From positions 1-39,703 of IMG/VR virus record IMGVR_UViG_3300007722_000041: 39,703 bases of DNA; one strand, written 5' to 3'. Within the stretch, counting starts at the first letter, position 1. The number at the start of each line of letters is the position of its first letter. Shown piece by piece: positions 998 to 18,894 of this stretch. The position numbers and the translations under genes were made by a program. The notes below the pieces were generated by a model, which was not told where the DNA came from, made no database searches, and was given only the letters and a program-made list of their open reading frames with translations. This stretch comes from a virus.

Positions 998-1252
998 TTA
1001 ATCTTCATCTACCTCTCGTAAAATTTTTATATAATTACCTGGGAGGTTTTCAAATACTGCTTCATCAACTGCTTGCTCAACCGCAAGAGCTTGATCAGCT
1101 TCAGACATTTCATATGAGTTGAAGGTGATCCTAGCTAGGAAAGAGGCAGTATGGTAACCTGCTCTAGTGTCAAACTCATACCACCGACGGTACTCATCAA
1201 AAGGATTGTAAGGATTGTCAATAGTAGAAAGCATTGCTAATCTTAGTGTCAT
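998..1252 (-). CDS. Conserved phage protein of unknown function (84 aa)
   Basis: The product begins MTLRLAMLSTIDNPYNPFDEYRRWYEFDT and continues GYHTASFLARITFNSYEMSEADQALAVEQAVDEAV. From memory, small proteins with this NPYNPF...W..FD...GY pattern follow the RNA polymerase-like gene in related gut siphophages; no function is known to me. It is soluble and mostly helical in the second half. It begins 20 bases after the stop of the large upstream gene, with a clear AAGGAAAGGA ribosome site, so it is probably in the same operon. Confidence 0.7.
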   Translation of the reverse strand: MTLRLAMLSTIDNPYNPFDEYRRWYEFDTRAGYHTASFLARITFNSYEMSEADQALAVEQAVDEAVFENLPGNYIKILREVDED

Positions 1253-1271: not shown

Positions 1272-3953
1272 CTAGTAGAGTGCCTCATCGAGAGTACCAA
1301 GTGGTACTCCCAACTGCTTAGAAATGTCAGCACGAGTGTAACCTTGTGCTAGCATAGCCTCGGCTCGGCGGGTCTTACTTGATGTCATTGTCTTCGATGA
1401 CTTCGGTCTAGCAAACTCTTTAACAGAATCCATATCAGAATTAGTAAGTATCTGCTTAAGGTTACTGTCACTGATAGCACCAGCTTGAATAGCTTCCCAG
1501 TGCTTTGCCGTGATCACAATTTTTTCTTTAGAAGCACCAGTTCTATTGCGTGCTGCAGCAAGAGCTTGATGCTTTACCTTCTTCTGAAGTGCTATGTTAG
1601 TTTGCATTTCTACGCTTGATTCTAACTTAGCTTTGTATGTTGCCTCAGCAATGTTTTGAGCACGCCTCTCGCGAGGGGCGTTGGACTTAGCCAGGGCCAA
1701 GGCTGAGTTAAGTTCCTTAACTTCCTTTGAGTATGTCTTCTTGGCAGAGGGTGACCAGTTTGAACGGGGGGTATTAATTGCCTCCAGCCTAGCCGCGTTG
1801 GCCATACTCTTAAGTCTGTTAGAGTGGTCGGCATAGAGATTTTCTATGCGTCGGTCTTTACCAGACGTGATCTCCCGTGCGTCTCGGGTTACTTCAAGGA
1901 GCGCCTTCCTCTCTTGCTTAGGCTGCCCAGTCTTATAGTTAGTTTGGCCTGATGGTACAAACTCAAGCTCACCAGTCTTTTTATTGATTGGCCCACCTTC
2001 AGACATTGGGCGAGCCTTCATCTTCTCTTGATACCTTGGACTCTGGGCCCTTGAGATGATAGTGGATGATCCACCTGTAGGCTGGTACTTAGCTTTAAGC
2101 TGCTTGATAGCGTTAACCTTAGCTGATTCTTTGTAGTTCAGCGCATGCTTTTCAGCATCAATAACAACCATTGAATGACGTACCGCTCTAACTAACTCAT
2201 CCCTAGATGCACCAGCGATAGTCATGTCGGTTATTAGATTGGATATGCTACCCATTTCGGCTCCCGTGTTTTTCATTACTGGCATGCCTTTGAATCCTCG
2301 ATACTGTTCGCGAGGATTAAAGTTTTTTAGGCCTTCCAACGCTGGCGTTGACTTAAGCTTACCTGAATTATTTGGCACTACAAGTACTGTGTCACCATCA
2401 AAGTCGGCACCAGACAGGCGCTCAGCTACCTTTGAATTAATACCAACGGCATCTCGCGCATTATCTAGGTACTTCTTGGCTTCACGGTTCTTATTGTTTA
2501 CTGTAAGCTCAGGGATCTCAAACGTTCCACCATGTGGATAACGAATCAACGCAACTCGTTCGCCATCATTGTAGTTAGGTGCATAGATCTCTGTGTCTTT
2601 CAAGCTGTTAACTGGAAGGATGGCGTGCCATGACTGCCTAGGAAGCTTAGATGCCTTTAGATGTACGGCTGCTGCATCAACATCTGAAGCAAAGTCTTCA
2701 AGCATCTTCCTTTTTACAGTAGGGTTAGTCAATGTCATTATCTCATCAAGCTGGTTCTTACGAGCCTCATACGTCATATCCAGTTGTTCTTTAGCAAGCT
2801 TTGGTGGCTGCTTAGACAGAACCTGGGATGCTATAGTGTCGGACCAGTTAGACCAATCACCCGCTTCATTCACAATGTTTACTACTGACGTAACCTTTAC
2901 CCTCCCATTAGGAAGCTCTGTACCAATCTGTCTACTGATCACCGTGCCAAACGGGTTGTCTTTGTCTACGGCACCTTTGTCATCTCGGGTAAGTTCCTTT
3001 AGTGAATCAAGCTTATTTCCTGTATCCTTTTTGTTAGTGTTAAACTGTACATCTACACCATCAGGAAGCCCATCCTTATAGATAGCCATACCCTTTATGT
3101 AGTGTCCAGCACCAACCTGAATTCTTACTTGTGCATAACTTGACCCTCCAAGATTAACGTCGTCTACTCCAGGACGGACATACATTACACCATCATTTAG
3201 AGCTCCACCGTCAGGCCCATAGACTATATCAACTCTCTTTAAGTTGAGTGCTAAAGGTTTTTCGATACCAAGCAATGTTTCGCCGGTATCGTTAAGTCTT
3301 TCGTTGACCTGTGAAATCTTATCTTTATTTTTAATAACATCAATAAAGGTCTTGTCTGGAGTTGTAAGTACCTTAAGCCTTGTGTCGAATGCGGTATTTA
3401 GACGTGGTGCTTTAATGTTAGAGTACACTTGATATCCATCAGCACGAAGAATTTCTAGGGAGACATTAAGTCGTTCTTTACTGATGTTAAGTAAGTTCTC
3501 AGTGCCTACACCAACATCGAGGTAACCTTTCTCATCGACTTGTGCTTTAAGAGCATCCACAGATAACTGAATAGAGTCACTACTAAGCTTAGCTGAGGGT
3601 TTAAGTAGTGATCGAACTGTAGCCTCAGGCATGCCAATGCGCTCGCCAATAGCGGTGTTTGACATTCCCTTTTCTTTTAGACGCTCAATCATAGAAATAT
3701 CAGACGCTCTTTGCTCGGACTTAGCCAAGGTACGGGCTGCCCGTAATTGAGTTGTTGACATTCCGAATCCCTCTGCAATTTGGGACTCAGTCATACCTTT
3801 TTTAAACAACGACTTTACGTAATCTAAGAAAGTTCTATTATTCTCGGTAACATAGGTGCTTCCTTCGTTACTACCACCAGATCCCCAAGGATACCTTCCT
3901 GATCGACGGATAATTCCATAGTGTACTAAATATTCCGTTGTTTCTAATTCCAT
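1272..3953 (-). CDS. Putative phage RNA polymerase (double-psi beta-barrel, DFDGD) with helix-turn-helix domains
   Basis: This 893-residue protein contains SGADFDGDTVLVVP, with DFDGD at about residues 517-521. This is the Mg-binding signature of the beta'-like barrel of multisubunit RNA polymerases and of single-chain relatives such as QDE-1 and phage SP-beta YonO. It is preceded by RYPHGGTFEIPELTVNNKN and followed by MGSISNLITDMTIAGAS, conserved in phage homologues I remember. The N-terminus has HYGIIRRSGRYPWGSG (11-26), then two helix-turn-helix segments (about 45-75 and 87-117); a third closes the protein (858-893). It would be expected to make RNA from phage DNA. The family is usually annotated only as an HTH protein. 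It is 21 bases downstream of the RecB-type nuclease gene. Polymerase activity is inferred from the motif. Confidence 0.7.
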   Translation of the reverse strand: MELETTEYLVHYGIIRRSGRYPWGSGGSNEGSTYVTENNRTFLDYVKSLFKKGMTESQIAEGFGMSTTQLRAARTLAKSEQRASDISMIERLKEKGMSNTAIGERIGMPEATVRSLLKPSAKLSSDSIQLSVDALKAQVDEKGYLDVGVGTENLLNISKERLNVSLEILRADGYQVYSNIKAPRLNTAFDTRLKVLTTPDKTFIDVIKNKDKISQVNERLNDTGETLLGIEKPLALNLKRVDIVYGPDGGALNDGVMYVRPGVDDVNLGGSSYAQVRIQVGAGHYIKGMAIYKDGLPDGVDVQFNTNKKDTGNKLDSLKELTRDDKGAVDKDNPFGTVISRQIGTELPNGRVKVTSVVNIVNEAGDWSNWSDTIASQVLSKQPPKLAKEQLDMTYEARKNQLDEIMTLTNPTVKRKMLEDFASDVDAAAVHLKASKLPRQSWHAILPVNSLKDTEIYAPNYNDGERVALIRYPHGGTFEIPELTVNNKNREAKKYLDNARDAVGINSKVAERLSGADFDGDTVLVVPNNSGKLKSTPALEGLKNFNPREQYRGFKGMPVMKNTGAEMGSISNLITDMTIAGASRDELVRAVRHSMVVIDAEKHALNYKESAKVNAIKQLKAKYQPTGGSSTIISRAQSPRYQEKMKARPMSEGGPINKKTGELEFVPSGQTNYKTGQPKQERKALLEVTRDAREITSGKDRRIENLYADHSNRLKSMANAARLEAINTPRSNWSPSAKKTYSKEVKELNSALALAKSNAPRERRAQNIAEATYKAKLESSVEMQTNIALQKKVKHQALAAARNRTGASKEKIVITAKHWEAIQAGAISDSNLKQILTNSDMDSVKEFARPKSSKTMTSSKTRRAEAMLAQGYTRADISKQLGVPLGTLDEALY

Positions 3954-3974
3954 CAGAAAAACTTCTTTCTAATT

Positions 3975-4535
3975 TTATAGGTTATCATCGTTTCTAATTT
4001 CTCTGAGTCGTGCATCGTGACGGACAATTGTTTCCATGATTGTGTCAATAGATTCAGGAATCGCCTCGTATACTCGAATCTCATCTCTTTGATAGATCCT
4101 TAATTCGGTGTCAATATCATACGGAGATATGCTATATTCTAAACAGAATAATGCAGCATACACTTCCAACTGTTTTTCTTTGGCGGCTATAATTCCAGTT
4201 TTTAGATCATGGATTCGTAGTTTGTTTCTTCTAAAAGAAATTGTATCTGCGCTGCCAAAACAGTTTTCAGAGAAATATAAAAGTTGCTCACAAAACATCT
4301 TGTAGCTAATAGCGTCATTAACGTATGTTGATAACGCCTGATTACTTTTTGCTAGCTTGACGCCTAGTCGAATTGCTTCATGAGCTAAGTCGTGTAAATC
4401 AGTTCCTCTACGAGAAGCTTGAGCAGATTGAAATCTAAGCTTTAGCTTTTGGTCGTCATAATTTAACCAACTGTTACTACTCGGGCTCAAAAAGGCGTGC
4501 TTGCCTTGCAACTCTGAATGTTTGTTGAAGAGCAT
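3975..4535 (-). CDS. PD-(D/E)XK nuclease, RecB/Cas4-like
   Basis: The 186-residue product shows the order expected of RecB-family nucleases: LSPSSNSWLNYD near the start, RRGTDLHDLAHEA, then FGSADTI...LRIHDLKTG (the metal-binding Asp followed by D-x-K), then the QLEVYAALFCLEY segment matching the QxxxY motif. Such enzymes degrade or trim DNA ends in recombination and replication. The start at 4535 has GGAG about ten bases upstream and lies inside the preceding VRR-NUC gene in another frame (59-base overlap), so the two are coupled. No iron-sulphur cysteine cluster is visible, unlike Cas4. Confidence 0.75.
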   Translation of the reverse strand: MLFNKHSELQGKHAFLSPSSNSWLNYDDQKLKLRFQSAQASRRGTDLHDLAHEAIRLGVKLAKSNQALSTYVNDAISYKMFCEQLLYFSENCFGSADTISFRRNKLRIHDLKTGIIAAKEKQLEVYAALFCLEYSISPYDIDTELRIYQRDEIRVYEAIPESIDTIMETIVRHDARLREIRNDDNL

Positions 4536-4797
4536 TTAAAACATTCTCCTCGTTTTCTGGGTATATGAATGCCGCAAAAGACAGTCTATTAAACCATTCG
4601 ATATAGTACGGTTGATTTGGTTGAGTTTGAGCATCAGCGGAGCACTTAACCTCAAGCATTGCCCACTTATCCTCAAACAAAATAAGAAGATCTGGAATCC
4701 CTTGTATATAAGACGGATCATTCTTAATAACAAAACATCCAGGTAGAAGCCTACCAAGACGTACTATGATGTCGTTCTGATATTTACTTTCTTGCAT
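4477..4797 (-). CDS. VRR-NUC domain nuclease
   Basis: The 106-residue protein matches a stand-alone VRR-NUC (PD-(D/E)XK) nuclease: KNDPSYIQGIPDLLILF carries the catalytic Asp and WAMLEVKCS the E-x-K pair. Phage VRR-NUC proteins act on branched or flap DNA and are often linked to Holliday-junction cleavage during replication or packaging. The gene begins 50 bases after a copy of the conserved promoter (4847-4875), so it probably leads the left-end nuclease and RNA polymerase operon. Its 3' end overlaps the RecB-like gene. Confidence 0.8.
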   Translation of the reverse strand: MQESKYQNDIIVRLGRLLPGCFVIKNDPSYIQGIPDLLILFEDKWAMLEVKCSADAQTQPNQPYYIEWFNRLSFAAFIYPENEENVLNALQQTFRVARQARLFEPE

Positions 4798-4846
4798 GTC
4801 CCTCCAATTGAAAAAGTAAAGAAATGCGTTTGCATATCCAGAGTCT

Positions 4847-4875
4847 CTCTATTATAAGCGTTGTATTCTTAACGA
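4847..4875 (-). promoter_or_regulatory. Conserved phage promoter, copy 1 (nuclease / RNA polymerase operon)
   Basis: Minus-strand reading AATACAACGCTTATAAT with a perfect TATAAT and the conserved ACAACGC block; the distal block is TCGTT rather than TCGCA. It lies between the NUMOD4 gene stop and the VRR-NUC start and would drive the genes from 4797 leftward. Confidence 0.75.
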
Positions 4876-4884
4876 GAGTATACG

Positions 4885-5400
4885 TTATCCAAATATGTAG
4901 TGTGCTCCTGTTGGGTATACTGCGGTTCCCATTGTAGCTGATTTCCAGACATCTTCAAATAGAAGCCCATCCTTAATAGCCGCATCAATGATTGACGGAT
5001 ATCCTTTACTATTGTCTACATTACTAACTCTTTTTATGTAATAGCTTTCTGGTTGATCTTCTACAAACTGTCGAGAATACTTCCATGCAAACCAAGAAGG
5101 TCGCCATGCTAGGTTTGGTGCAAACGTGTTCTCTTTGTTATTATCCAGCATAATGACGGTATCACAGAATACTCCATAATCGCTTGGGCCAAAATATGGA
5201 GGATCAACAAATGCTTCTGCCACAAGAACTCTTATGGATCTAGTTAGTCTTACACCATACTGTACGAGTGTTACTTTGTAGTCGCCCTGCATTGTTCGGC
5301 TTTTTGCCATTAGCTTATCTGTTCGGTGGTTTAAGACTTCTCCAAACGAACTTATACTGTAACTTGTAAATCTTTCGATTGGTTTCCAGACCTCTTGCAT
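4885..5400 (-). CDS. NUMOD4 / HNH-like protein, catalytic His apparently lost
   Basis: The N-terminus EVWKPIERFTSYSISSFGEV is a NUMOD4 motif, the DNA-binding segment typical of HNH homing endonucleases, and RVLVAEAFV matches the start of the HNH domain. The expected H-x-D-G-N-x-x-N region instead reads TVIMLDNNKENTFAPNLAW: the N...NL.W frame is kept, but the metal-binding or catalytic His is Met and no His precedes it. The roughly 70-residue C-terminal part is unfamiliar. It may be a DNA-binding protein descended from a homing nuclease. The ATG at 5400 follows AAAGGAGAATTAGACA. Confidence 0.65.
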   Translation of the reverse strand: MQEVWKPIERFTSYSISSFGEVLNHRTDKLMAKSRTMQGDYKVTLVQYGVRLTRSIRVLVAEAFVDPPYFGPSDYGVFCDTVIMLDNNKENTFAPNLAWRPSWFAWKYSRQFVEDQPESYYIKRVSNVDNSKGYPSIIDAAIKDGLLFEDVWKSATMGTAVYPTGAHYIFG

Positions 5401-5413
5401 TGTCTAATTCTCC

Positions 5414-5662
5414 TTTTGGCCAGATTTGACCAGTTTTGGGTAACAAAGAGTTGTGGGTAAAATGTCATACCTCTATACTCTCTTCATATATTAAGTCGTA
5501 TAGAGGGGGGTATAAATACGTAGTACTTTTTGAGTTTTAGATTTGACGATCACCACAAAGTTGGTTATCACTAAAAACGCATAATAAATTTGGTTGTTTC
5601 GTATAATTTAACACACTTTCATACACATTCACACACCTTGTTCGTCCGTCAAATCTGACCAA
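5414..5662. other. Repeat-rich intergenic region, candidate origin or regulator-binding region
   Basis: This noncoding AT-rich stretch separates the SF2 helicase and NUMOD4 genes. Its ends are near-perfect inverted repeats of 16 bases (TTTGGCCAGATTTGAC at 5414-5429 against GTCAAATCTGACCAAA near 5647-5662). The AGATTTGAC core recurs near 5540. A further inverted repeat, CCTCTATAC / GTATAGAGG, spans about 5470-5507. This resembles iterons or operator sites. I see no convincing copy of the conserved promoter here. Confidence 0.5.
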
Positions 5663-5675
5663 ATATTTCGCTTTT

Positions 5676-6875
5676 TTAACATTCATCGATTTCAAGTGGC
5701 TCGTTTTCAAGCATTTTAGCTATGTATTTTCTCTCGTTATAGGTTTCCTTAGAGTCAAGTGCATCGCGTATAGCTCTATCAATCTCCGAATTTGCCCACA
5801 AGATATAGTAGTAAAGTGTTGTGAAAGGGGTATCAAGACGGTCTATTCTACCTTGAGCCTGAGTAAAGTTCTTCCAAGAATATGTTAGGGAGTAGAGGAC
5901 CATAGCGTCCGTGGACGTGCAATTCCAACCTTCAGCACCTGCAGTATACTGAACAAGATAAACCCACCTTTCACTATCCGGTATAGGATTCTTACGATGA
6001 CCATTCCATTCACCAATCTCAATACAACCACCTAACGTTCTTAGTAGTTCTAGTTCGTAGTTAAATGTGTAGAATATGATTAACCTATTGTGGCACGTCA
6101 TTAGCTTACGAATCATATCTAGTCGTGATGTATCTTCATTTACAACTCTACGCATTAGTCGAAAGACTTCTGAAATATCGCGAATGGGTTGATCTTTGTA
6201 TGGGTTCCAACGATTTTTCAGGACTACATCAAACTTCTTACGGTCGAAGCCCACTTCAATATAATTTAGCATTCTCTCGGTATGTTTGATAAAAGGCATC
6301 TCAATGAGAATATCATTGCGTAGTACCTCTAGGTGACGCTCGTTAAGATAGCCACGAATCTTTGGGTACTTGGAATATGACGCATACAGTACATGCTTCA
6401 TCTTGAACTCAGTTATGTTCTTAAAGAATCCATTTGCAATGAATACCGGAGCGTAGTCTAACCTGTTGTCTCCTGGTGTGGCACTGAGCATAATCCATTT
6501 GTTTCGCTTAGCAATCTTTATAAATGATTTAACCCAAGAGCCATTACCAACAAGTCGTTGCTCATCAAAAATGAAAAAACAATATTCATAATCTTCAAAC
6601 TTACCAATGTTGTTCCAGGATTCAACAATGAGAGCACCATCTACAGTATATTCTTTATTTGTGGAAATAGTAAGTTTAGCAGCTTCTCGTTCCCAATCAA
6701 GAGTGTCTCTTTTTTTTGCAGTAGTGATGACTACGATGTCTTTTGGAGATTCTCTTTTAGCGTAGTAAGCAAGTGCCGTAAGTGACTTTCCACTTCCAAC
6801 TCCTCCCCACAATATCTTTCCATTACCGAGCCTTTCTATTGCTTCTGTCTGGTGGTCCATGAGTTTTATCATCAT
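5676..6875 (-). CDS. SF2 DNA helicase / ATPase (DEAD/SNF2-like)
   Basis: The 399-residue protein has the full superfamily 2 set: HQTEAIERL (Q-motif-like), Walker A GGVGSGKS (24-31), motif Ia VITTAKKRDTLDWERE, Walker B DEQR (104-107), motif III SATPG (131-135), and in the second RecA lobe IIFYTFNYE, AEGWNCTSTDAMV and motif VI QAQGRIDR (339-346). This is the layout of phage SNF2/UvsW-type translocases that remodel or unwind DNA during replication and recombination. The start at 6875 has TAAGGATT before it and overlaps the preceding small ORF. Confidence 0.85.
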   Translation of the reverse strand: MMIKLMDHQTEAIERLGNGKILWGGVGSGKSLTALAYYAKRESPKDIVVITTAKKRDTLDWEREAAKLTISTNKEYTVDGALIVESWNNIGKFEDYEYCFFIFDEQRLVGNGSWVKSFIKIAKRNKWIMLSATPGDNRLDYAPVFIANGFFKNITEFKMKHVLYASYSKYPKIRGYLNERHLEVLRNDILIEMPFIKHTERMLNYIEVGFDRKKFDVVLKNRWNPYKDQPIRDISEVFRLMRRVVNEDTSRLDMIRKLMTCHNRLIIFYTFNYELELLRTLGGCIEIGEWNGHRKNPIPDSERWVYLVQYTAGAEGWNCTSTDAMVLYSLTYSWKNFTQAQGRIDRLDTPFTTLYYYILWANSEIDRAIRDALDSKETYNERKYIAKMLENEPLEIDEC

Positions 6876-6963
6876 AATCCTTACTATCTATAGTACCAAA
6901 ATTTTTAGCAAAGTAAATAAGCATCCAAAAGTCAAATAATTCTTGTGGCTCAAACTCCTCCAT
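6823..6963 (-). CDS. Small protein of unknown function (46 aa)
   Basis: A 46-residue frame starts at 6963, sharing one base with the stop of the upstream gene (TGATG), and ends inside the helicase gene in another frame. The first half (MEEFEPQELFDFWMLIYFAKNFG) is acidic then aromatic-rich; the second (HGPPDRSNRKAR) is basic. The tight coupling on both sides supports translation. I recognise no family. Confidence 0.5.
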   Translation of the reverse strand: MEEFEPQELFDFWMLIYFAKNFGTIDSKDYDDKTHGPPDRSNRKAR

Positions 6964-7253
6964 CAAAACTCCTCACCAACCCACCCAAGGGCAACTCGAT
7001 TTGCTTCTTCGAATATGGGGTGACCGTCCGGACAAGTCGGGATACCTCCACTAGCATCAATATCTCTTTTTACACCACCCCATTCTCCATTGATACAGCG
7101 TAGTTCTCGGAATTGTTCCCCATAGTTCATAAGAATCACAGCAATGCTGGTATACAACATTTCATCCCGAAAATGATTTTGGCGATACTCAACTTGTTCC
7201 GCAATAGATAACGCATGCTCTACTGATAGTGGCTCACCTGAGATTGGTATCAT
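6963..7253 (-). CDS. Conserved phage protein of unknown function (96 aa)
   Basis: The chosen start at 7253 (MIPISGEPLSVEHALSIAEQ) has AAAGGAGAAATA directly upstream; the frame is open further but that part runs towards the terminator hairpin at 7282. Features include HFRDEMLYTSIAVILMNYGEQ (helical) and a C-terminal CINGEWGG...GIPTCPDGHPIFEEANR segment. It resembles small hypothetical proteins I remember from actinophages. No conserved promoter copy precedes it, so it may depend on read-through. Confidence 0.65.
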   Translation of the reverse strand: MIPISGEPLSVEHALSIAEQVEYRQNHFRDEMLYTSIAVILMNYGEQFRELRCINGEWGGVKRDIDASGGIPTCPDGHPIFEEANRVALGWVGEEF

Positions 7254-7281
7254 TATTTCTCCTTTGGTTACACTATACGAC

Positions 7282-7315
7282 AAAAAAAACCTAAGCCCTT
7301 GTGTAGGGCCTCGGT
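7282..7315 (-). terminator. Intrinsic terminator, family III copy 1
   Basis: Minus-strand hairpin with GGCCCTACACAAGGGC at its core followed by TTAGG and a run of T. It follows the stop of the gene at 7322-7519. About 40 bases are repeated almost exactly at 7583-7615. Confidence 0.8.
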
Positions 7316-7321
7316 CTTGAG

Positions 7322-7519
7322 TCAGTTCTGCTCGTCGATGTAATCTTGGATGTAATGAGCGCGTGCGCTCATGTACAGTTTTGGGTGGTTGTCCTTAATC
7401 TTGTCCAGCTCTTTTGTCAGACTATTAAAAAATTTTATTTCTCGATCAGTCTTTGGTTGAGTGGTCTTAATCGCGTTCATAATTCCGTACAACATATTTA
7501 TCACGTCTTGTTCTAACAT
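7322..7519 (-). CDS. Small soluble helical protein (65 aa)
   Basis: MLEQDVINMLYGIMNAIKTTQPKTDREIKFFNSLTKELDKIKD... is charged and predicted helical, without a membrane segment, unlike most neighbours in the array. AAGGAGTAATT precedes the ATG at 7519. It forms a one-gene unit between a degenerate promoter copy (7543-7571) and the terminator at 7282-7315. I recognise no family. Confidence 0.65.
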   Translation of the reverse strand: MLEQDVINMLYGIMNAIKTTQPKTDREIKFFNSLTKELDKIKDNHPKLYMSARAHYIQDYIDEQN

Positions 7520-7542
7520 AATTACTCCTTGGTAGGTAGTTG

Positions 7543-7571
7543 TCTCATTAAAGGTATTTTATAGTATGCAA
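7543..7571 (-). promoter_or_regulatory. Conserved phage promoter, copy 2 (degenerate)
   Basis: It aligns without gaps to the other copies but has TTGCA for TCGCA, a diverged central block and TTTAAT for TATAAT; the trailing GAGA is kept. It is probably weaker. It precedes the 65-residue gene. Confidence 0.5.
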
Positions 7572-7582
7572 CGTATACGGGT

Positions 7583-7615
7583 CAAAAAACCTAAGCCCTT
7601 GTGTAGGGCCTCGGT
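7583..7615 (-). terminator. Intrinsic terminator, family III copy 2
   Basis: Nearly identical to the hairpin at 7282-7315, with a T-run. It follows the gene at 7638-7784 and stands just upstream of the promoter at 7543-7571. Confidence 0.8.
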
Positions 7616-7637
7616 CTTGAGTCGAAATAAATTGTTT

Positions 7638-7784
7638 TTAATGATTACGTTTTCCTTTGTCTTTTGTTGCTAATACAATAGCTAGGATAATTCCGCCGAT
7701 CACGAAGTTTTTGTTTCGTTCTCGACGTCTATCTTCTGCTCGTTGTTTATTGGCATTTACAAGGTCTAGGAATTTTTTTATCAT
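7638..7784 (-). CDS. Small membrane protein (48 aa)
   Basis: The N-terminal half is very basic and helical (MIKKFLDLVNANKQRAEDRR). A short hydrophobic segment follows (NFVIGGIILAIVLATK, about 27-42) and a basic tail ends the protein. It looks like a single-pass or surface-associated membrane peptide. AAGGAGCAAATA precedes the ATG at 7784. The unit has its own promoter (7802-7830) and terminator (7583-7615). Confidence 0.6.
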   Translation of the reverse strand: MIKKFLDLVNANKQRAEDRRRERNKNFVIGGIILAIVLATKDKGKRNH

Positions 7785-7801
7785 TATTTGCTCCTTATTG
7801 G

Positions 7802-7830
7802 TCTCATTATAAGCATTGTATAATATGCGA
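7802..7830 (-). promoter_or_regulatory. Conserved phage promoter, copy 3
   Basis: TCGCA, five bases, TACAATGCTTATAATGAGA on the minus strand. The -10 hexamer is about 20 bases before the start codon of the 48-residue gene. Confidence 0.85.
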
Positions 7831-7842
7831 CTAAATCAAGAC

Positions 7843-7876
7843 AAAAAAAGGAAACCCGTGTGGGTCTCCTTCTTTT
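7843..7876 (-). terminator. Intrinsic terminator, family I copy 1
   Basis: GGAGACCCACACGGGTTTCC then a T-run on the minus strand. It ends the gene at 7882-8049 and abuts the next promoter. Confidence 0.8.
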
Positions 7877-7881
7877 AACTC

Positions 7882-8049
7882 CTACTCGTTGTTTTCTGAT
7901 AGGTTAACGATGTGCTCACCAATGAGTTCGTACACATAGTCTAACTCATGCTCAAGCTCTGTGATAATCGTATAAAGATTCCATAGAACTTTGGCTAGAG
8001 TCGCTATAGCAGCGAATGCAATGATGAGATATCCGATAGTCCAGATCAT
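7882..8049 (-). CDS. Small membrane protein (55 aa)
   Basis: The N-terminal half is one hydrophobic helix (MIWTIGYLIIAFAAIATLAK), the second half an acidic helix (TELEHELDYVYELIGEH). The topology would place the acidic part in the cytoplasm or outside; the sequence does not say which. AAGGAGTAATC precedes the ATG at 8049. It has its own promoter (8069-8097) and terminator (7843-7876). I recognise no family. Confidence 0.65.
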   Translation of the reverse strand: MIWTIGYLIIAFAAIATLAKVLWNLYTIITELEHELDYVYELIGEHIVNLSENNE

Positions 8050-8068
8050 GATTACTCCTTGTTGGTAG

Positions 8069-8097
8069 TCTCATTATAGGCGTTGTAAATTCTGCGA
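8069..8097 (-). promoter_or_regulatory. Conserved phage promoter, copy 4
   Basis: TCGCA, five bases, TACAACGCCTATAATGAGA on the minus strand; identical over the whole element to copy 9 (9831-9859). It drives the 55-residue gene. Confidence 0.88.
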
Positions 8098-8109
8098 GTA
8101 AATCAAGAC

Positions 8110-8142
8110 AAAAAAGGAGACCCTTGTGGGGTCCCCTCCTTC
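8110..8142 (-). terminator. Intrinsic terminator, family I copy 2
   Basis: GGGGACCCCACAAGGGTCTCC followed by a T-run on the minus strand, just after the stop of the gene at 8152-8373 and 13 bases before promoter copy 4. Confidence 0.8.
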
Positions 8143-8151
8143 TACGAGTTT

Positions 8152-8373
8152 TCAATCCATATCTTGAATTACTTTAGTGGATTCTTGCCAAACTGGGTTA
8201 AATTGCCGGCTCCACATTAATGGTGTAATAGAGTCTCGCCTCACATACCGTACGACTCTTTTAAGCACGACGAATATTAATGCGCCTGCTGCAAATGTCG
8301 CCGCTGTGATTGCGACCTCTTTTGTACCATTTTCTGTGGTCTCGGTCATAGTATCAACTTGGTTGTCATTCAT
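8152..8373 (-). CDS. Small membrane protein, MNDN-family paralogue A (73 aa)
   Basis: MNDNQVDTMTETTENGTKE is a hydrophilic N-terminus, followed by a membrane helix (AITAATFAAGALIFVVLKRVV, about 21-41) and a basic then acidic tail containing PVWQESTKVIQ. The ATG at 8373 follows GGAGAAATT; the longer frame upstream runs across the promoter and is rejected. It shares its first residues with the gene at 9561-9803, and its tail and entire upstream DNA with the gene at 10281-10535. Function unknown. Confidence 0.7.
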   Translation of the reverse strand: MNDNQVDTMTETTENGTKEVAITAATFAAGALIFVVLKRVVRYVRRDSITPLMWSRQFNPVWQESTKVIQDMD

Positions 8374-8400
8374 AATTTCTCCAATGATTAGTGGGTTTGT

Positions 8401-8429
8401 TCTCATTATACGCGTTGTAAATTCTGCGA
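8401..8429 (-). promoter_or_regulatory. Conserved phage promoter, copy 5
   Basis: TCGCA, five bases, TACAACGCGTATAATGAGA. About 55 bases covering this promoter and the leader to the start codon are identical to those at 10537-10591. Confidence 0.88.
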
Positions 8430-8441
8430 GTAAATCAAGAC

Positions 8442-8475
8442 AAAAAAGGAAACCCGTGTGGGTCTCCTTCTTTAA
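8442..8475 (-). terminator. Intrinsic terminator, family I copy 3
   Basis: Same hairpin as 7843-7876 (GGAGACCCACACGGGTTTCC plus T-run), ending the gene at 8480-8614. Confidence 0.8.
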
Positions 8476-8479
8476 AGCT

Positions 8480-8614
8480 TTATCGGGCACTTAGTCCAAA
8501 TATTCCTGAGATCAGTCGAAACATCCGTCCCACAAGTACACTCATCGCCCAAATGGCGATAGCTGCAATTGCGAGAGGGATGAATAAAATGATTAATAGA
8601 AAGATTTCAAACAT
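8480..8614 (-). CDS. Small membrane protein (44 aa)
   Basis: Almost the whole N-terminal two thirds is hydrophobic (MFEIFLLIILFIPLAIAAIA then IWAMSVLVGRMF), followed by a short tail ending GLSAR. It may span the membrane once or form a hairpin. AAGGAGACATAA precedes the ATG at 8614. It has its own promoter (8632-8660) and terminator (8442-8475). A holin-like or exclusion role is possible but unproved. Confidence 0.65.
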   Translation of the reverse strand: MFEIFLLIILFIPLAIAAIAIWAMSVLVGRMFRLISGIFGLSAR

Positions 8615-8631
8615 TTATGTCTCCTTGGTAG

Positions 8632-8660
8632 GCTCATTATAGACGTTGTATTATCTGCGA
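8632..8660 (-). promoter_or_regulatory. Conserved phage promoter, copy 6
   Basis: TCGCA, five bases, TACAACGTCTATAATGAGC on the minus strand. It drives the 44-residue gene. Confidence 0.82.
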
Positions 8661-8662
8661 TT

Positions 8663-8698
8663 AAAAAAAGAAGAAGCCATGTTAGGCTCCTTCCTTTT
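8663..8698 (-). terminator. Intrinsic terminator, family II copy 1
   Basis: GGAGCCTAACATGGCTTCTTC then a T-run on the minus strand, overlapping the 3' end of the gene at 8699-8896. The same hairpin recurs at 9202-9238. Confidence 0.75.
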
Positions 8699-8896
8699 TT
8701 AGAGTTCTTCATATTGTTCGTCATTAAGGTACTTCATCACGTCAATGCCTTCACTTTCCAGGAACGTATAGAAGGATTTTGCGTTCTTTTGCTGTAGGGC
8801 AATTGCTGAAATAGCAAGTGCTCCTAAGGCATAAGAAACGGTGTTACGCTTCAGATGGTTCTTGGTGTTGATAGCAACTTCTTTGATTTTGTTCAT
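8699..8896 (-). CDS. Small membrane-associated protein (65 aa)
   Basis: MNKIKEVAINTKNHLKRNT is basic, followed by a moderately hydrophobic helix (VSYALGALAISAIALQQ, about 20-36) and an acidic C-terminus (FLESEGIDVMKYLNDEQYEEL). AAGGAGACATT precedes the ATG at 8896. It has its own promoter (8916-8944) and terminator. I recognise no family. Confidence 0.65.
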   Translation of the reverse strand: MNKIKEVAINTKNHLKRNTVSYALGALAISAIALQQKNAKSFYTFLESEGIDVMKYLNDEQYEEL

Positions 8897-8915
8897 AATG
8901 TCTCCTTATAGGTTG

Positions 8916-8944
8916 TCTCATTATAGGCATTGTAGATTCTGCGA
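8916..8944 (-). promoter_or_regulatory. Conserved phage promoter, copy 7
   Basis: TCGCA, five bases, TACAATGCCTATAATGAGA. It lies directly after the stop of the gene at 8947-9177, with no terminator between, and drives the 65-residue gene. Confidence 0.85.
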
Positions 8945-8946
8945 TT

Positions 8947-9177
8947 TTATTGGTCACGTTCATATACACGAGAAACTTCATAGTTCAATGAGGTTAAATC
9001 ATCATTCGTAAAGTGAATAAAATACTTACCCGGCTCTTTGATTGTTCCATTCTGAATCGAGTTAGTCAAAGCCGCCGCAAATGGAATCTCGTCACCAACT
9101 CCAGTGACAGGCAACGGTGGAAACTTCTCACCAAGCTCTACCACATAACCATATTGTCCATTTATAAACTGAAACAT
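8947..9177 (-). CDS. Soluble protein of unknown function (76 aa)
   Basis: MFQFINGQYGYVVELGEKFPPLPVTG looks like a small beta-rich protein, with KYFIHFTNDDLTSLNYEVSRVYERD at the end. I start it at 9177, where AAAGAGGACAA lies upstream; the frame is open to 9219 but the extra part is the family II terminator hairpin. It has no own promoter, so it depends on read-through of that terminator. I recognise no family. Confidence 0.55.
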   Translation of the reverse strand: MFQFINGQYGYVVELGEKFPPLPVTGVGDEIPFAAALTNSIQNGTIKEPGKYFIHFTNDDLTSLNYEVSRVYERDQ

Positions 9178-9201
9178 TTGTCCTCTTTCTAAGGCATTTA
9201 T

Positions 9202-9238
9202 GAAAAAAGAAGAAGCCATGTTAGGCTCCCCCTTTTTA
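9202..9238 (-). terminator. Intrinsic terminator, family II copy 2
   Basis: GGAGCCTAACATGGCTTCTTC then a T-run on the minus strand, immediately after the stop of the gene at 9240-9419. Confidence 0.75.
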
Positions 9239-9239
9239 G

Positions 9240-9419
9240 TCAGTTACTTTTGGTTTTGAACATATTCAGAACTGAGTTGGTTGCATTTGTCCGAGTTTGC
9301 GTCAGAGTTTCTTCTATCTTTTCATCAATTGCCATCTTGGCAATGATTCCAGCTAGGAATGATCCTCCGAGTGCAATTACGGTAATTGCGCCCAACATAT
9401 ATCCTGATGTAAATTTCAT
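9240..9419 (-). CDS. Small membrane protein (59 aa)
   Basis: MKFTSGYMLGAITVIALGGS begins a single N-terminal membrane helix (about 6-28), followed by a polar helix with many Thr/Asn (EKIEETLTQTRTNATNSVLN). It may sit in the inner membrane with the polar part forming a coiled coil. GGAGGAATT precedes the ATG at 9419. Own promoter (9437-9465) and terminator (9202-9238). Confidence 0.65.
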   Translation of the reverse strand: MKFTSGYMLGAITVIALGGSFLAGIIAKMAIDEKIEETLTQTRTNATNSVLNMFKTKSN

Positions 9420-9436
9420 AATTCCTCCAGTAGTTG

Positions 9437-9465
9437 TCTCATTATAAGCGTTGTATTATATACGA
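9437..9465 (-). promoter_or_regulatory. Conserved phage promoter, copy 8
   Basis: TCGTA, five bases, TACAACGCTTATAATGAGA. It drives the 59-residue gene. Confidence 0.82.
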
Positions 9466-9490
9466 TTTACTTACGTCCTATGAAGTTGGT
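9466..9490 (-). pseudogene. Relic of a gene 3' end (copy of the end of 9861-10106)
   Basis: Minus-strand AACTTCATAGGACGTAAGTA encodes NFIGRK and a stop. The intact gene at 9861-10106 ends NFIGRE and a stop, also directly upstream of a promoter copy. No gene body precedes the relic, which suggests that a paralogue or recombination intermediate was deleted. Confidence 0.55.
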
Positions 9491-9520
9491 TGTTTTATTA
9501 TAAATAGTATCCCTATACGA

Positions 9521-9554
9521 CAAAAAAGGAGACCCTTGTGGGGTCTCCTCCTTT
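9521..9554 (-). terminator. Intrinsic terminator, family I copy 4
   Basis: GGAGACCCCACAAGGGTCTCC then a T-run on the minus strand, ending the gene at 9561-9803. It is followed by TTGTCGTATA, also seen after the hairpins at 7282 and 10241. Confidence 0.82.
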
Positions 9555-9560
9555 GCGTTT

Positions 9561-9803
9561 TTACTCGCAGTTTTGATTATTCTCATCTTCGTCAGATTCA
9601 CTTATGTAATAAACCGCTTCCAAATCTTTATTAGGACGCAAGCTCTCAAATCCGGTACGAATATAGTTCCATCCAAAGCGCGCGACTGTTGGAAGCGTAG
9701 CGCCTATTACGGCGCAAGCTACTAATGTCATTGCTGTGGTTGGAAACTCACTCGTATCATCTTCGGTGGTCTCGGTCATAGTATTGATGTGGTTGTCATT
9801 CAT
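9561..9803 (-). CDS. Small membrane protein, MNDN-family paralogue B (80 aa)
   Basis: MNDNHINTMTETTEDDTSE matches paralogue A (8152-8373) almost residue for residue at the start. A hydrophobic segment follows (TTAMTLVACAVIGATLPTVA, about 22-41). The C-terminus is acidic and ends ENNQNCE, like the QNCE end of paralogue C (10281-10535). AAGGAGACTTAACC precedes the ATG at 9803. It has its own promoter (9831-9859) and terminator (9521-9554). Confidence 0.7.
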   Translation of the reverse strand: MNDNHINTMTETTEDDTSEFPTTAMTLVACAVIGATLPTVARFGWNYIRTGFESLRPNKDLEAVYYISESDEDENNQNCE

Positions 9804-9830
9804 GGTTAAGTCTCCTTGGTAGGTGAGTTG

Positions 9831-9859
9831 TCTCATTATAGGCGTTGTAAATTCTGCGA
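9831..9859 (-). promoter_or_regulatory. Conserved phage promoter, copy 9
   Basis: TCGCA, five bases, TACAACGCCTATAATGAGA, identical to copy 4. It abuts the stop of the gene at 9861-10106 and drives paralogue B. Confidence 0.88.
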
Positions 9860-9860
9860 T

Positions 9861-10106
9861 TCACTCACGTCCTATGAAGTTATTGTGCTTGGAAAACTTT
9901 TGAAACTCACTTATAATAAGATCAAATCTAATCGTGGCTCCGTTTTCAAAGGCCACGTACCCGTAATCTTTTTTCCCATGACCACAGCAAGCAAATATAA
10001 CTCCGGGGAGCACACCTAGACATGGGTCTGCATAATAACCATCTTCAGTTCTTTCGTTTTCTGTACAAACCAAATTACATACGTTGCACTTCATTCCAGG
10101 ATGCAT
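9861..10106 (-). CDS. Small cysteine-rich, probably zinc-binding protein (81 aa)
   Basis: MHPGMKCNVCNLVC contains CxxCxxxC, and a second group follows (DPCLGVLPGVIFACCGHG), enough for one or two zinc sites. The C-terminal half (GYVAFENGATIRFDLIISEF) looks like a compact beta/alpha region. AAGGAGTAATAAACA precedes the ATG at 10106. No conserved promoter copy lies directly upstream; the 130 bases before it hold nothing I recognise. A nucleic-acid-binding role is possible. Confidence 0.65.
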   Translation of the reverse strand: MHPGMKCNVCNLVCTENERTEDGYYADPCLGVLPGVIFACCGHGKKDYGYVAFENGATIRFDLIISEFQKFSKHNNFIGRE

Positions 10107-10240
10107 TGTTTATTACTCCTTAATTAGTTGGTAAATATAAGTCGTGCCATATATTGGATTTAATCTTAACATGTATAACACCTACAGAATGTTACTCTTT
10201 AAGTCTTCATTACACATTCTTAGTAGTTATCCTTATACGA

Positions 10241-10274
10241 CAAAAAAAGGAAACCCGTGTGGGTCTCCTTCTTT
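10241..10274 (-). terminator. Intrinsic terminator, family I copy 5
   Basis: GGAGACCCACACGGGTTTCC then a T-run on the minus strand, ending the gene at 10281-10535. It matches 7843-7876 and 8442-8475. Confidence 0.82.
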
Positions 10275-10280
10275 GCGTTT

Positions 10281-10535
10281 TTACTCGCAGTTTTGTTTTT
10301 GATCAAACTCTACTATTACATCTTTAAGTAATGTAGTGGATTCATTCCAAATTGCATTATATGGGCTGTCGCTCATTAATGATAAAAGCCAGTCCCGCGC
10401 ACATGCAACAAGTACGGCTTCAACAGCCATGATGCCTATTAAGGCTTTGGATGTTAATTCTACTGTTGTGATTGCGAACTCTCTTTTACCACTTGTTGGG
10501 CTCTTTGCCAAAGCATTCATTAGGTTGCCATTCAT
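10281..10535 (-). CDS. Small membrane protein, MNDN-family paralogue C (84 aa)
   Basis: MNGNLMNALAKSPTSGKREF is followed by a hydrophobic stretch (ALIGIMAVEAVLVACARDWL, about 31-50). The tail NAIWNESTTLLKDVIVEFD resembles paralogue A (PVWQESTKVIQ), and the last residues QNCE match paralogue B. The start at 10535 has GGAGAAATT and the same leader and promoter DNA as paralogue A. So it is a mosaic of the other two. Own promoter 10563-10591, terminator 10241-10274. Confidence 0.7.
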   Translation of the reverse strand: MNGNLMNALAKSPTSGKREFAITTVELTSKALIGIMAVEAVLVACARDWLLSLMSDSPYNAIWNESTTLLKDVIVEFDQKQNCE

Positions 10536-10562
10536 AATTTCTCCAATGATTAGTGGGTTTGT

Positions 10563-10591
10563 TCTCATTATACGCGTTGTAAATTCTGCGA
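10563..10591 (-). promoter_or_regulatory. Conserved phage promoter, copy 10
   Basis: TCGCA, five bases, TACAACGCGTATAATGAGA, identical to copy 5 including the leader. It drives paralogue C. Confidence 0.88.
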
Positions 10592-10594
10592 GTT

Positions 10595-10726
10595 TTACCT
10601 AGTCCAACGGAGTTTTACATATGGGTATCGAGAAGACTTCTTGTAATGAAGCCCACGATGGAATAAAAAGCGTTCACATTTAAAGTCTTCACCGTAAGTA
10701 CTTCGGCATTTAAATAATTTAAGCAT
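10595..10726 (-). CDS. Small basic protein (43 aa)
   Basis: MLKLFKCRSTYGEDFKCERF and HRGLHYKKSSRYPYVKLRW make a very basic, aromatic-rich product with two Cys. Its net charge suggests nucleic acid binding. GTAGGAGTAATA precedes the ATG at 10726. The stop is a few bases before promoter copy 10. I recognise no family. Confidence 0.55.
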   Translation of the reverse strand: MLKLFKCRSTYGEDFKCERFLFHRGLHYKKSSRYPYVKLRWTR

Positions 10727-10750
10727 TATTACTCCTACGAGTTAGATGTA

Positions 10751-10987
10751 TTATATATCTAGGTCTACAACTTCACCAAGCTCTTGAATAATACTATTTA
10801 GTTCTTTTTGGGCTTCTCCAGCAAAGCTGTCAAGACCATAGAAGTCGTCTCCATTACGGAGCTTAAGATGAATGTGATACCTTGGCAATGGCTTTGTTGA
10901 ATCAATAGCCTCAATCCTAACGTATAAAATCTCTTCTGCATCTACTGCGAACTGTGCATCACCACGAATTTTAATGAACTTACGCAT
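10751..10987 (-). CDS. Small protein sharing its N-terminus with the gene at 11871-12293 (78 aa)
   Basis: I start it at 10987 (MRKFIKIRGDAQFAVDAEEI), where GGAGGAAATA lies directly upstream, rather than at 10999, which lacks a site. The first 30 residues match the C-terminus of the 140-residue protein at 11871-12293 at both protein and DNA level. The rest (RYHIHLKLRNGDDFYGLDSFAGEAQKELNSIIQEL) looks like a small alpha/beta domain, possibly DUF-like. It follows the structured noncoding stretch 10995-11215. Confidence 0.65.
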   Translation of the reverse strand: MRKFIKIRGDAQFAVDAEEILYVRIEAIDSTKPLPRYHIHLKLRNGDDFYGLDSFAGEAQKELNSIIQELGEVVDLDI

Positions 10988-10994
10988 TATTTCC

Positions 10995-11215
10995 TCCATT
11001 AGTTGTTTGCGAATAGGAGCAGTTTGTATCCCGCGTGCTCAGGCGGGGAGACGCCCACAGGAGCGAAAGGTACCCAGCAGTGGTTTCCGCACTACCTTAC
11101 TGTTTTTCTGCCACTCTAAAAAAGGGACAGTTATCAGTTTGTGTGACGATTAGATGTAAACCCGGTTATGTTACGCGAGCGATCTAGGTCACTTTCCTCC
11201 GGGCCAGAGGAAATA
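10995..11215 (-). ncRNA. Structured noncoding region, candidate RNA or leader
   Basis: The roughly 230 bases between two small genes have no ORF but several perfect stems: TTTCCTC/GAGGAAA (11193-11213), GTGAC plus TAGAT pairing with ATCTA plus GTCAC (11143-11192), AAGGT/ACCTT enclosing AGTG/CACT (about 11067-11097), and GGCG/CGCC (11042-11055). A run of six T near 11115 could end a first domain. The strand is inferred from flanking genes. It could be a trans-acting RNA or a 5' regulatory leader of the gene at 10751-10987. No known family is recognised. Confidence 0.5.
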
Positions 11216-11223
11216 TAAAAGAG

Positions 11224-11367
11224 TTACTCTTTTGTAACGGTAGTTATAACATCCTGTAACGCGTAGGCACTTGCTGCCATAACGAGTGCTATAGACCAAA
11301 GCCTTAACGTTGTTTTTATAAAAATCGCTGGTTTTATAGAAATTTTTACCTCTATAACTTTACTCAT
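11224..11367 (-). CDS. Small membrane protein (47 aa)
   Basis: MSKVIEVKISIKPAIFIKTT is followed by a hydrophobic helix (LRLWSIALVMAASAYAL, about 21-37) and a short polar tail. GGAGGAAAGCA precedes the ATG at 11367, which overlaps the upstream stop (ATGA). It is coupled to the gene at 11364-11594. Function unknown. Confidence 0.6.
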   Translation of the reverse strand: MSKVIEVKISIKPAIFIKTTLRLWSIALVMAASAYALQDVITTVTKE

Positions 11368-11594
11368 TGCTTTCCTCCATTATTGGTTCTTGATAGTATT
11401 ATTACCGAACTTAACTTATACCCTTCTGGGTGATAGTCTTTTGCATACCTGAAGCAATCTTCTTGAGTCTTAAGCTTGGTTCCATCTCTTGGATTTAAGA
11501 TAGATCCCATGATTGCGTCTCGAATAAGTTTTGCCGTGCTGATGTTGATGTTGTCATCAAACTCAAGCTTTCCAATAGCACAGGTTAATATCAT
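11364..11594 (-). CDS. Small protein of unknown function (76 aa)
   Basis: MILTCAIGKLEFDDNINIST is followed by KLIRDAIMGSILNPRDGTKLKTQEDCFRYAKDYHPEGYK, a soluble alpha/beta-looking protein. TAGGAGAATAA precedes the ATG at 11594. Its 5' region is the structured element 11620-11736 and promoter copy 11, so it is the first gene of that unit if transcription passes the U-tract. I recognise no family. Confidence 0.6.
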   Translation of the reverse strand: MILTCAIGKLEFDDNINISTAKLIRDAIMGSILNPRDGTKLKTQEDCFRYAKDYHPEGYKLSSVIILSRTNNGGKQ

Positions 11595-11619
11595 TTATTC
11601 TCCTAATTAGTTGGTAAAG

Positions 11620-11736
11620 AAAAAAAGAGAAGCGTGGGTTACTAGCCTATCGAAAACTAGTCGTTAAGCACTTTTTCAGGTGCCGCCAGGTAGGTATAAG
11701 TTTTCTCTTATACACCTTCGTATCTTACCTCTTCTC
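11620..11736 (-). ncRNA. Multi-branched small RNA with intrinsic terminator-like end
   Basis: Transcription from promoter copy 11 would start at or near GAGAAG (11736). That strand pairs with CTTCTC (11632-11627), immediately before seven T. Inside are AGGTA/TACCT enclosing GTATAAG/CTTATAC, then GCAC/GTGC, then ACTAG/CTAGT. This makes a closed junction with three arms, about 117 nucleotides long, ending in a U-tract: the layout of a discrete noncoding RNA, or of a leader that controls read-through into the gene at 11364-11594. No known family is recognised. Confidence 0.6.
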
Positions 11737-11763
11737 TCATTATAAGCATTGTATTAATTGCGA
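11735..11763 (-). promoter_or_regulatory. Conserved phage promoter, copy 11
   Basis: TCGCA, five bases, TACAATGCTTATAATGAGA. Its nearest product is the structured RNA at 11620-11736 rather than a coding sequence. Confidence 0.85.
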
Positions 11764-11766
11764 ACT

Positions 11767-11838
11767 GGGCGGCCTGACCGGGAGTCATAGGGTTACTCTC
11801 CGCAGACTGTAGAACTCTCGCAATAGGTTCTAGCGCCC
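11767..11838. other. 72-base folded element between a gene end and a promoter
   Basis: GGGCG (11767-11771) pairs with CGCCC (11834-11838) and encloses two hairpins: one from GGGAGT to ACTCTCC and one from TAGAAC to GTTCTA. The size is like a tRNA, but no T-loop GTTCGA, anticodon arm or CCA is seen. It may be the 3' processing or termination element of the gene at 11871-12293, or part of a second RNA. The strand is not decided. Confidence 0.4.
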
Positions 11839-11870
11839 TAAAATATTAACTACCTGCGTCTAACTTATTA

Positions 11871-12293
11871 TCAATCTGATACAATCTCCGCAATACTTTC
11901 CGCAATAGCCTCAAGCTTAACGTATAAAATCTCTTCTTCATCTACTGCGAACTGTGCATCACCAGGAATTTTAATGACCTCGCGAACACTTTCATCCTCT
12001 TCTTTGTTTAGGAAGTCAACCCAAGACTGTGTTTCAGGTTCTATTGCAATAAACTGCTCGTTAAAGATTCTTTCCGAATAACAACGAATGTTGTCACCCA
12101 TCTTAGTCATCCAGAACCCTGGGTAGACTCGGAAAACATTCGGGATGAGACGACGATCAACTTGAATATAAGGTGTTCCGTCATCCTTTGTACGCATAGT
12201 GCCTACGAACTCAGAAATATCATTGATGTTCTCAACGGTTACTTCAATTGCCTCTACAACAAAAGGCTTACGGACAAACGTCTGAAATTCCAT
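11871..12293 (-). CDS. Conserved phage protein with duplicated C-terminal segment (140 aa)
   Basis: The main part (MEFQTFVRKPFVVEAIEVT..., RLIPNVFRVYPGFWMTKMGD, SERIFNEQF) matches a widespread small phage protein of unknown function that usually ends soon after this last motif. Here a tail EVIKIPGDAQFAVDEEEILY has been added that copies the N-terminus of the gene at 10751-10987, including near-identical DNA. AAGGAGAATTAAAGT precedes the ATG at 12293. It looks like a fusion created by local duplication. Confidence 0.7.
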   Translation of the reverse strand: MEFQTFVRKPFVVEAIEVTVENINDISEFVGTMRTKDDGTPYIQVDRRLIPNVFRVYPGFWMTKMGDNIRCYSERIFNEQFIAIEPETQSWVDFLNKEEDESVREVIKIPGDAQFAVDEEEILYVKLEAIAESIAEIVSD

Positions 12294-12296
12294 ACT

Positions 12297-12401
12297 TTAA
12301 TTCTCCTTCGAAATTGGGTTGGTAGCTGCTTGCGAAATTCCGTATCCCGACAAGACGCCAAACAGCATGATACAAGCTCCTAACAGAATATCCCAATTCA
12401 T
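12297..12401 (-). CDS. Tiny membrane protein (34 aa)
   Basis: MNWDILLGACIMLFGVLSGY is a single hydrophobic helix followed by a short polar tail. The ATG at 12401 shares a base with the stop of the ssDNA-binding candidate (TGATG), and its last codons form the ribosome site of the next gene. This arrangement supports translation. No family recognised. Confidence 0.55.
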   Translation of the reverse strand: MNWDILLGACIMLFGVLSGYGISQAATNPISKEN

Positions 12402-12915: not shown

Positions 12916-12952
12916 TATTATCTCCTTATTTAAAGTATTTGAAGTTTTCTTT

Positions 12953-18892: not shown

Positions 18893-18894
18893 AA

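Follow-up and report, generated by a model that had tools for sequence, protein, structure and literature searches.

The minus-strand gene at 1272-3953 of the window, the whole 39,703-base stretch of phage DNA analysed here, probably encodes a single-chain DNA-dependent RNA polymerase of the two-barrel superfamily that transcribes the non-structural genes of the phage from a phage-specific promoter-like element. Computation supplied the match in fold, the set of invariant residues and the promoter-like motif, and showed that motif and gene occur together; we infer catalysis, DNA as the template, promoter contact and timing. The source record of 39,703 bases carries nearly all of its genes on the minus strand. 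The gene (P0001) is an ATG-start open reading frame of 893 amino acids, and a profile search matched the protein over its full length to PHROG 4291 (E=0). An earlier note, made from the sequence of this stretch, had described an open reading frame here with SGADFDGDTVLVVP; both were confirmed, with the aspartates at positions 517, 519 and 521, and the DNA pattern for DFDGDT occurs only once in the 39,703-base record.

To define the conserved residues, 72 proteins were aligned, consisting of the window protein and 71 from fetched loci, including loci from the best 80, which were kept, of at least 511 relatives of the polymerase in IMG/VR. Asp517, Phe518, Asp519, Gly520 and Asp521 (2391-2405, minus strand), the predicted catalytic metal site, do not vary in any of the 72 aligned homologs (72/72), and the DFDGD motif is therefore not a chance occurrence. 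Lys287 and Arg471 are also invariant (72/72) and Lys308 is retained in 70 of the 72, which supplies the two lysines of the beta-like barrel that the note had wanted looked for. Among the most conserved segments of the alignment are YAQVR...HYLKGMA...FNTNK and R-x-PHGG-x-FEIP...SGADFDGD. The beta-like barrel, placed by conservation and the range of the fold matches, contains Lys287 and Lys308 and covers residues of about 230-310 (3024-3266, minus strand). The beta'-like barrel, placed by conservation and by matches to the largest subunits of Pol I/II/III, which begin near residue 424-436, contains Arg471 and the DFDGD triad and covers residues of about 436-530 (2364-2648, minus strand); the limits of both barrels are approximate. 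Long predicted helices follow the triad at residues 563-613 (2115-2267, minus strand) with Met567-Gly568, Asn572-Leu573, His593-Ser594-Met595 and Asp599 invariant in the 72-protein alignment, and these bridge-helix-like segments may take the bridge-helix role.

An AlphaFold2 model based on the 72-protein alignment was obtained with a pLDDT of 84.5 and a pTM of 0.74. The top Foldseek matches of this model in the PDB were QDE-1 (2j7n, E=1.8e-10), P74-26 gp62 (8f5m, E=1.1e-6) and maize RDR2 (7w82, E=1.3e-6), with crAss gp66 (E=1.6e-3) and then cellular polymerases following. By VIA-align, 365 residues were aligned with RDR2 (Z 15.3, rmsd 4.3), 382 with QDE-1 (Z 14.9, rmsd 4.7), 360 with gp62 (Z 13.9, rmsd 4.9) and 362 with the gp64 entry 8f72 (Z 11.8, rmsd 4.8). 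The note had named a predicted fold lacking two double-psi barrels as an outcome that would refute the polymerase proposal; this was not the outcome, as all four of these alignments lie within about residues 228-730 and span both barrels. The largest subunits of Pol I/II/III aligned with Z of about 10.5-11.1 within about residues 424-712. Against predicted viral proteins, the third match was a 616-aa protein of P23-45, equal in size to gp64. The global TM from Foldseek was only about 0.3, and the packing of the domains therefore differs or is uncertain.

At the sequence level, hhalign gave a weak match to the YonO group (probability 57%, E=1.1e-4) over 80 columns in the R-x-P-H and DxDGD region, and its alignments to P23-45 gp64 (3%) and crAss gp66 (1%) were not significant. 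A Pfam search of the window protein returned no polymerase family, and a PDB sequence search returned no match to a polymerase core. A passage of PMC7824862 describes the superfamily as having a second barrel with two basic active-site residues, and states that YonO-like polymerases lack the sandwich-barrel insert and combine the two barrels in a single chain. In the window protein the DxDxD triad and the two basic residues of the second barrel were found in the sequence and the two-barrel fold in the model, and the spacing of 21 residues between Lys287 and Lys308 would leave no room for a large insert between them.

Single-chain two-barrel phage polymerases are already known from YonO, gp64 and gp66. 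YonO of Bacillus phage SPbeta (PMC5467207) is a one-chain DNA-dependent polymerase of similar size (839 aa) with a DxDGD triad from a phage of a Gram-positive host. It differs from the window protein in that it is reported to transcribe late genes, and in the portion of that paper bearing on it no HTH array or promoter motif appears. A tblastn search with YonO matched 36 records, and the named host genera of the PHROG 4291 family were not among their sources. The gp62 and gp64 proteins of the Thermus phages P74-26 and P23-45 are solved single-chain two-barrel phage polymerases, although gp64 is shorter (616 aa). A section of PMC10770324 reports conserved DNA motifs tied to the phage polymerases, gp64 of P23-45 being tied to a GC-rich motif and a tail-fused virion enzyme to an AT-rich one, and uses for these enzymes the same kind of co-occurrence argument as is made below. 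The crAss-like phi14:2 gp66 (6VR4) is a two-barrel phage polymerase with a weak Foldseek match, but it has 2180 aa, has no sequence-level match and is virion-packaged according to its PDB title. QDE-1 and RDR2, the best fold matches, hold both barrels in one chain but are eukaryotic RNA-silencing enzymes, and neither is known to have a promoter.

The claim of three helix-turn-helix (HTH) segments is backed by Pfam, by PHROG and NCBIfam matches and by predicted helices. The first (residues 42-72; 3738-3830, minus strand) is supported by predicted helices and by an HTH_7 stretch at 43-70 that scores below gathering. The second, HTH2 (residues 84-118; 3600-3704, minus strand), is sigma region 4-like, contains Glu110 and Arg114, and matches PF13384 (HTH_23) above the gathering score, in two stretches with the best at 88-118, and PF08281 just below it. 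The C-terminal segment (residues 857-892; 1278-1385, minus strand) coincides with PHROG and NCBIfam HTH/sigma matches near 840-891. The model places helices at 42-51, 56-62, 67-94, 99-106 and 110-117 in the N-terminal part and at 858-869, 874-881 and 885-892 at the C-terminus.

Ahead of the first HTH lies a conserved but disordered peptide, LVHYGIIRRSGRYPWGSG (residues 9-26; 3876-3929, minus strand), in which His11, Gly13 and Ser18-Ser25 are invariant in 72 sequences although the pLDDT is below 50. Among the fetched loci the pattern GRYP[WY]G is exclusive to the polymerase (110 copies and 2 truncated). A role for the peptide as a general virion tag was rejected, since the pattern occurs in no other protein of these loci; it is possibly a private signal, and its invariance despite disorder may reflect docking or packaging.

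The promoter-like element was first seen as a repeat in intergenic gaps read in the transcribed direction, with the common form TCGCA-N5-TACA-N5-TATARTGAG, often followed by ACCCC. When the window was scored against the 21-base consensus AATACAACGCTTATAATGAGA with a threshold of 15/21, 14 copies were found on the transcribed strand and one on the other, compared to a mean of 0.98 copies and at most 4 in order-2 Markov simulations of one strand. The core TACA-N5-TATARTGAG occurs exactly 12 times, at 7803-7820, 8070-8087, 8402-8419, 8633-8650, 8917-8934, 9438-9455, 9832-9849, 10564-10581, 11736-11753, 20466-20483, 21598-21615 and 22085-22102 (all minus strand). A weak copy (15/21) is present at 7543-7563 and a variant copy (17/21) at 4847-4867, upstream of the endonuclease, exonuclease and polymerase genes (both minus strand). 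None of the cores falls within the structural gene block (22.3-39.5 kb), and most are in an array of small genes at 7.5-11.8 kb. Downstream of every exact core there is a ribosome-binding-like site, and a candidate start codon stands 18-28 nt past the core, this start being doubtful for the cores at 21598 and 11736.

Several further observations were made around these cores. The ATG within the core (TATAATGAG) is the listed start of three open reading frames, at 22089, 10568 and 9836, and the true starts of these frames probably lie further downstream. Near-identical terminator-like hairpins alternate with promoter cores at 7293-8474 (minus strand), so that each small gene seems to sit in a terminator-promoter cassette of its own. 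Two long stretches, at 11000-11363 and 11595-11870, contain no clear genes, one of them with a promoter core and a possible structured RNA that has no Rfam match; the window as a whole gave 0 Rfam matches and 0 tRNAs.

Isolate phages were scanned with the core pattern, allowing up to 2 mismatches. Exact coding-strand copies numbered 10 in DrGrey (Streptomyces), 8 in Eddiemania (Gordonia), 3 in P078 (Lactococcus), 2 in Mudcat (Arthrobacter) and 1 in the oral phage HF4_2, and Microbacterium phage Count held only copies with 1-2 mismatches. On the opposite strand, at up to 2 mismatches, none were found in five isolates and two, both at 2 mismatches, in P078. Scanning with the reversed pattern yielded several copies with 2 mismatches and a single exact one, in P078. 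Rhodococcus phage ReqiPepy6 has 14 copies on one strand within the 32 kb examined, Bifidobacterium phage BitterVaud1 has 2, and in phage 1706 a variant, TTACA-N4-CTATAGTAGAAAG, precedes early open reading frames. No core was present within the 25,488 of 69,826 bases of MT835495 that were examined. The element recurs in Streptomyces, Gordonia, Rhodococcus and oral phages, while phages of Arthrobacter, Microbacterium and Lactococcus carry it with slight changes; from Streptomyces to Lactococcus phages it is nearly identical.

The element and the polymerase gene also occur together in records selected by either one. Of 80 records picked only by their polymerase, 34 hold the core with at most one mismatch. 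Fragments below 10 kb make up 47 of these records and 6 of them hold it, and it is present in 23 of the 24 records of at least 20 kb and in all 18 of at least 30 kb. The 124 core copies in these 80 records are all on the polymerase strand and none on the other, with 2 copies of the reversed pattern; because nearly all genes are on one strand, this agreement alone shows direction and not cause. In the reverse test, 43 records longer than about 20 kb and outside the earlier searches were selected by the motif; the polymerase gene is present in 31 of them, and those over 40 kb have it without exception (23 of 23). Of 36 records for a narrower motif pattern, 17 have the polymerase, many of the records being fragments. 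A control pattern with the spacing shifted by one base gave 0 stretches in the collection, compared to at least 119 for the true pattern. Motif and gene could co-occur as one phage lineage carries both.

A closer relation between enzyme and element was sought by comparing the recognition helix of HTH2 with the box that stands ten bases ahead of TACA, at sites chosen by the core and not by the box; L088 was omitted because its helix is absent from the alignments. CG at -9/-8 was found in at least half of the sites for 28 of 29 polymerases with Arg114, and in HF4_2, which has Ser110, it was found in 4 of 8 sites. The two polymerases lacking Arg114 have AT-rich boxes, with CG in 0 of 3 sites for L017 and 0 of 11 for P078, and L045, in which the helix is altered, has TCGT in 3 of 3 sites. 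Phage 1706 is an exception, with a canonical helix and CG in only 1 of 9 sites. A Fisher test of 28/1 against 0/2 gave 0.006, the sequences being related. Given this relatedness and the reliance on two losses, the covariation points to an upstream box that partly follows HTH2 but does not prove it. As far as sequence comparison goes, the proposal that the HTH segments could give promoter recognition within one chain gains support from the phage-specific motif and this partial covariation.

The motif could instead be an extended -10 promoter, recognised by the host RNA polymerase carrying its main sigma factor and perhaps aided by a phage activator, while the two-barrel protein does something else. 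The motif does contain TATAAT, the universal -10 consensus of the hosts, and the polymerase gene is seemingly behind a motif copy both in the window and in Mudcat, where the copy precedes the nuclease and polymerase genes, so something must start polymerase expression. However, of 67 sites 9 had a TTGACA-like -35 element at 15-19 nt upstream of the -10, fewer than expected from the background rate of 0.19, and sigma-70-like pairs at 4000-23000 of the window were not enriched (49 found, 47.0 expected). Furthermore, phages of hosts from Streptomyces to Lactococcus also share TACA, GAG and TCGCA, which do not belong to the -10, and the box changes with HTH2 in two lineages. On balance we consider reading by host sigma unlikely.

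A function in copying or amplifying RNA, as an RNA-dependent RNA polymerase, is suggested by the description of PHROG 4291 and by the best fold matches, QDE-1 and RDR2, which are cellular RNA-dependent enzymes. Such a function is highly improbable for a DNA phage protein with HTH DNA-binding segments and a conserved promoter-like DNA element; QDE-1 structures with DNA templates also exist (7y7r, 7y7s), and the relatives gp62 and gp64 are found in DNA phages, where the non-virion enzyme is described in part of PMC10770324 as transcribing phage genes. The RNA-dependent label in PHROGs, which comes without a linked promoter, therefore probably names the wrong template. The same label is carried by several GenBank/RefSeq records, and the single paper found to mention a family member, that of phage Scarif (PMC11536984), does no more than list it under this name. 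Other homologs are recorded as HTH protein, hypothetical, 'structural protein' or 'putative transcription factor D5'. The expectation in the earlier note that such proteins are generally labelled only as HTH proteins was thus mistaken, and of its suggestion of an overlooked single-chain RNA polymerase, the polymerase part is supported by fold and residues, but the family is not entirely overlooked, PHROGs having already labelled it a polymerase, as RNA-dependent. Separately, the oral phage homolog at 3007-5667 of locus L012 is annotated as 'tail fiber protein', a label that looks wrong.

By tblastn the polymerase family was found in 250 of 50,697 phage records, with at least 80% covered in 249, from Arthrobacter (95), Gordonia (55), Streptomyces (54), Lactococcus (13) and other hosts; the P078 and Mudcat homologs as queries gave an identical record count and organism breakdown. 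A small conserved open reading frame of 84 aa (PHROG 4303; 998-1252, minus strand) lies directly downstream of the polymerase, also in relatives, and occurs in 250 records with organism counts identical to those of the polymerase. Its protein has no Pfam family at a useful level, and for its compact model (pLDDT 89.3) Foldseek returned nothing at E<=0.001, the best Z being 4.4. It was rejected as a dedicated polymerase subunit because the exonuclease (254 records) and the full-length primase-polymerase (252) behave alike, the linkage being lineage-wide and not specific. Upstream, a Cas4-like exonuclease (3975-4535, minus strand) and an endonuclease (4477-4797, minus strand; VRR-Nuc in relatives) are conserved neighbours by synteny. 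This position beside nuclease genes within the replication core set might suggest that the polymerase is mainly a replication primase, the least probable of the readings considered, as a primase-polymerase is already encoded in the genome and many motif copies stand just ahead of the ribosome-binding sites of small genes.

For a DNA-dependent polymerase serving gene expression, the active site would lie between the barrel with Lys287/Lys308 and the barrel with Asp517/Asp519/Asp521, and the enzyme would transcribe non-structural genes from TCGCA-N5-TACA-N5-TATARTGAG located about 18-28 nt before the start codon. HTH2 would most likely read the TCGCA box while the rest of the enzyme melts TATARTGAG, so that no sigma factor would be needed. 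The motif copy ahead of the nuclease and polymerase genes would allow self-amplification once some enzyme is present, and the first enzyme may be delivered with the virion or arise through low-level transcription by the host.

Concerning the virion, the homolog in Lactococcus phage 1706 (orf75) bears the deposited label 'structural protein' despite its position away from the structural genes, and the same holds for orf62 and orf71 (12971-13249 and 17577-17930 of locus L334). The label in phage 1706 may derive from mass spectrometry, and a note on ReqiPepy6 repeats this label. From these deposits one may tentatively propose, with more doubt than belief, that across a whole lineage of tailed phages of Gram-positive bacteria the polymerase is virion-carried and injected and initiates early transcription with neither host polymerase nor a sigma factor, using one promoter code across hosts of widely differing GC content, with HTH2 as a built-in sigma region 4 and HYG..SGRYPWGSG as a packaging or docking signal.

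How sigma-less single-chain two-barrel polymerases find promoters is little known. The present family pairs such an enzyme with an easily assayed candidate promoter in cultured phages whose hosts, such as Streptomyces and Lactococcus, are harmless in the laboratory, and offers natural specificity variants in L017, P078, L045 and 1706. A literature search found no paper on this promoter-like motif, and neither a lineage-wide promoter-like element tied to the polymerase nor a box partly following HTH2 was found in the literature searched. The assignment would correct a doubtful RNA-dependent label across public records, and the family could be turned into a small orthogonal system for transcription in Gram-positive bacteria.

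Elsewhere in the window, PHROG 2152, an uncharacterised family, is present twice, at 18020-18892 and 20497-21240 (minus strand), and at 39477-39703 a repeated serine/glycine/lysine-rich coding sequence runs off the end of the record.
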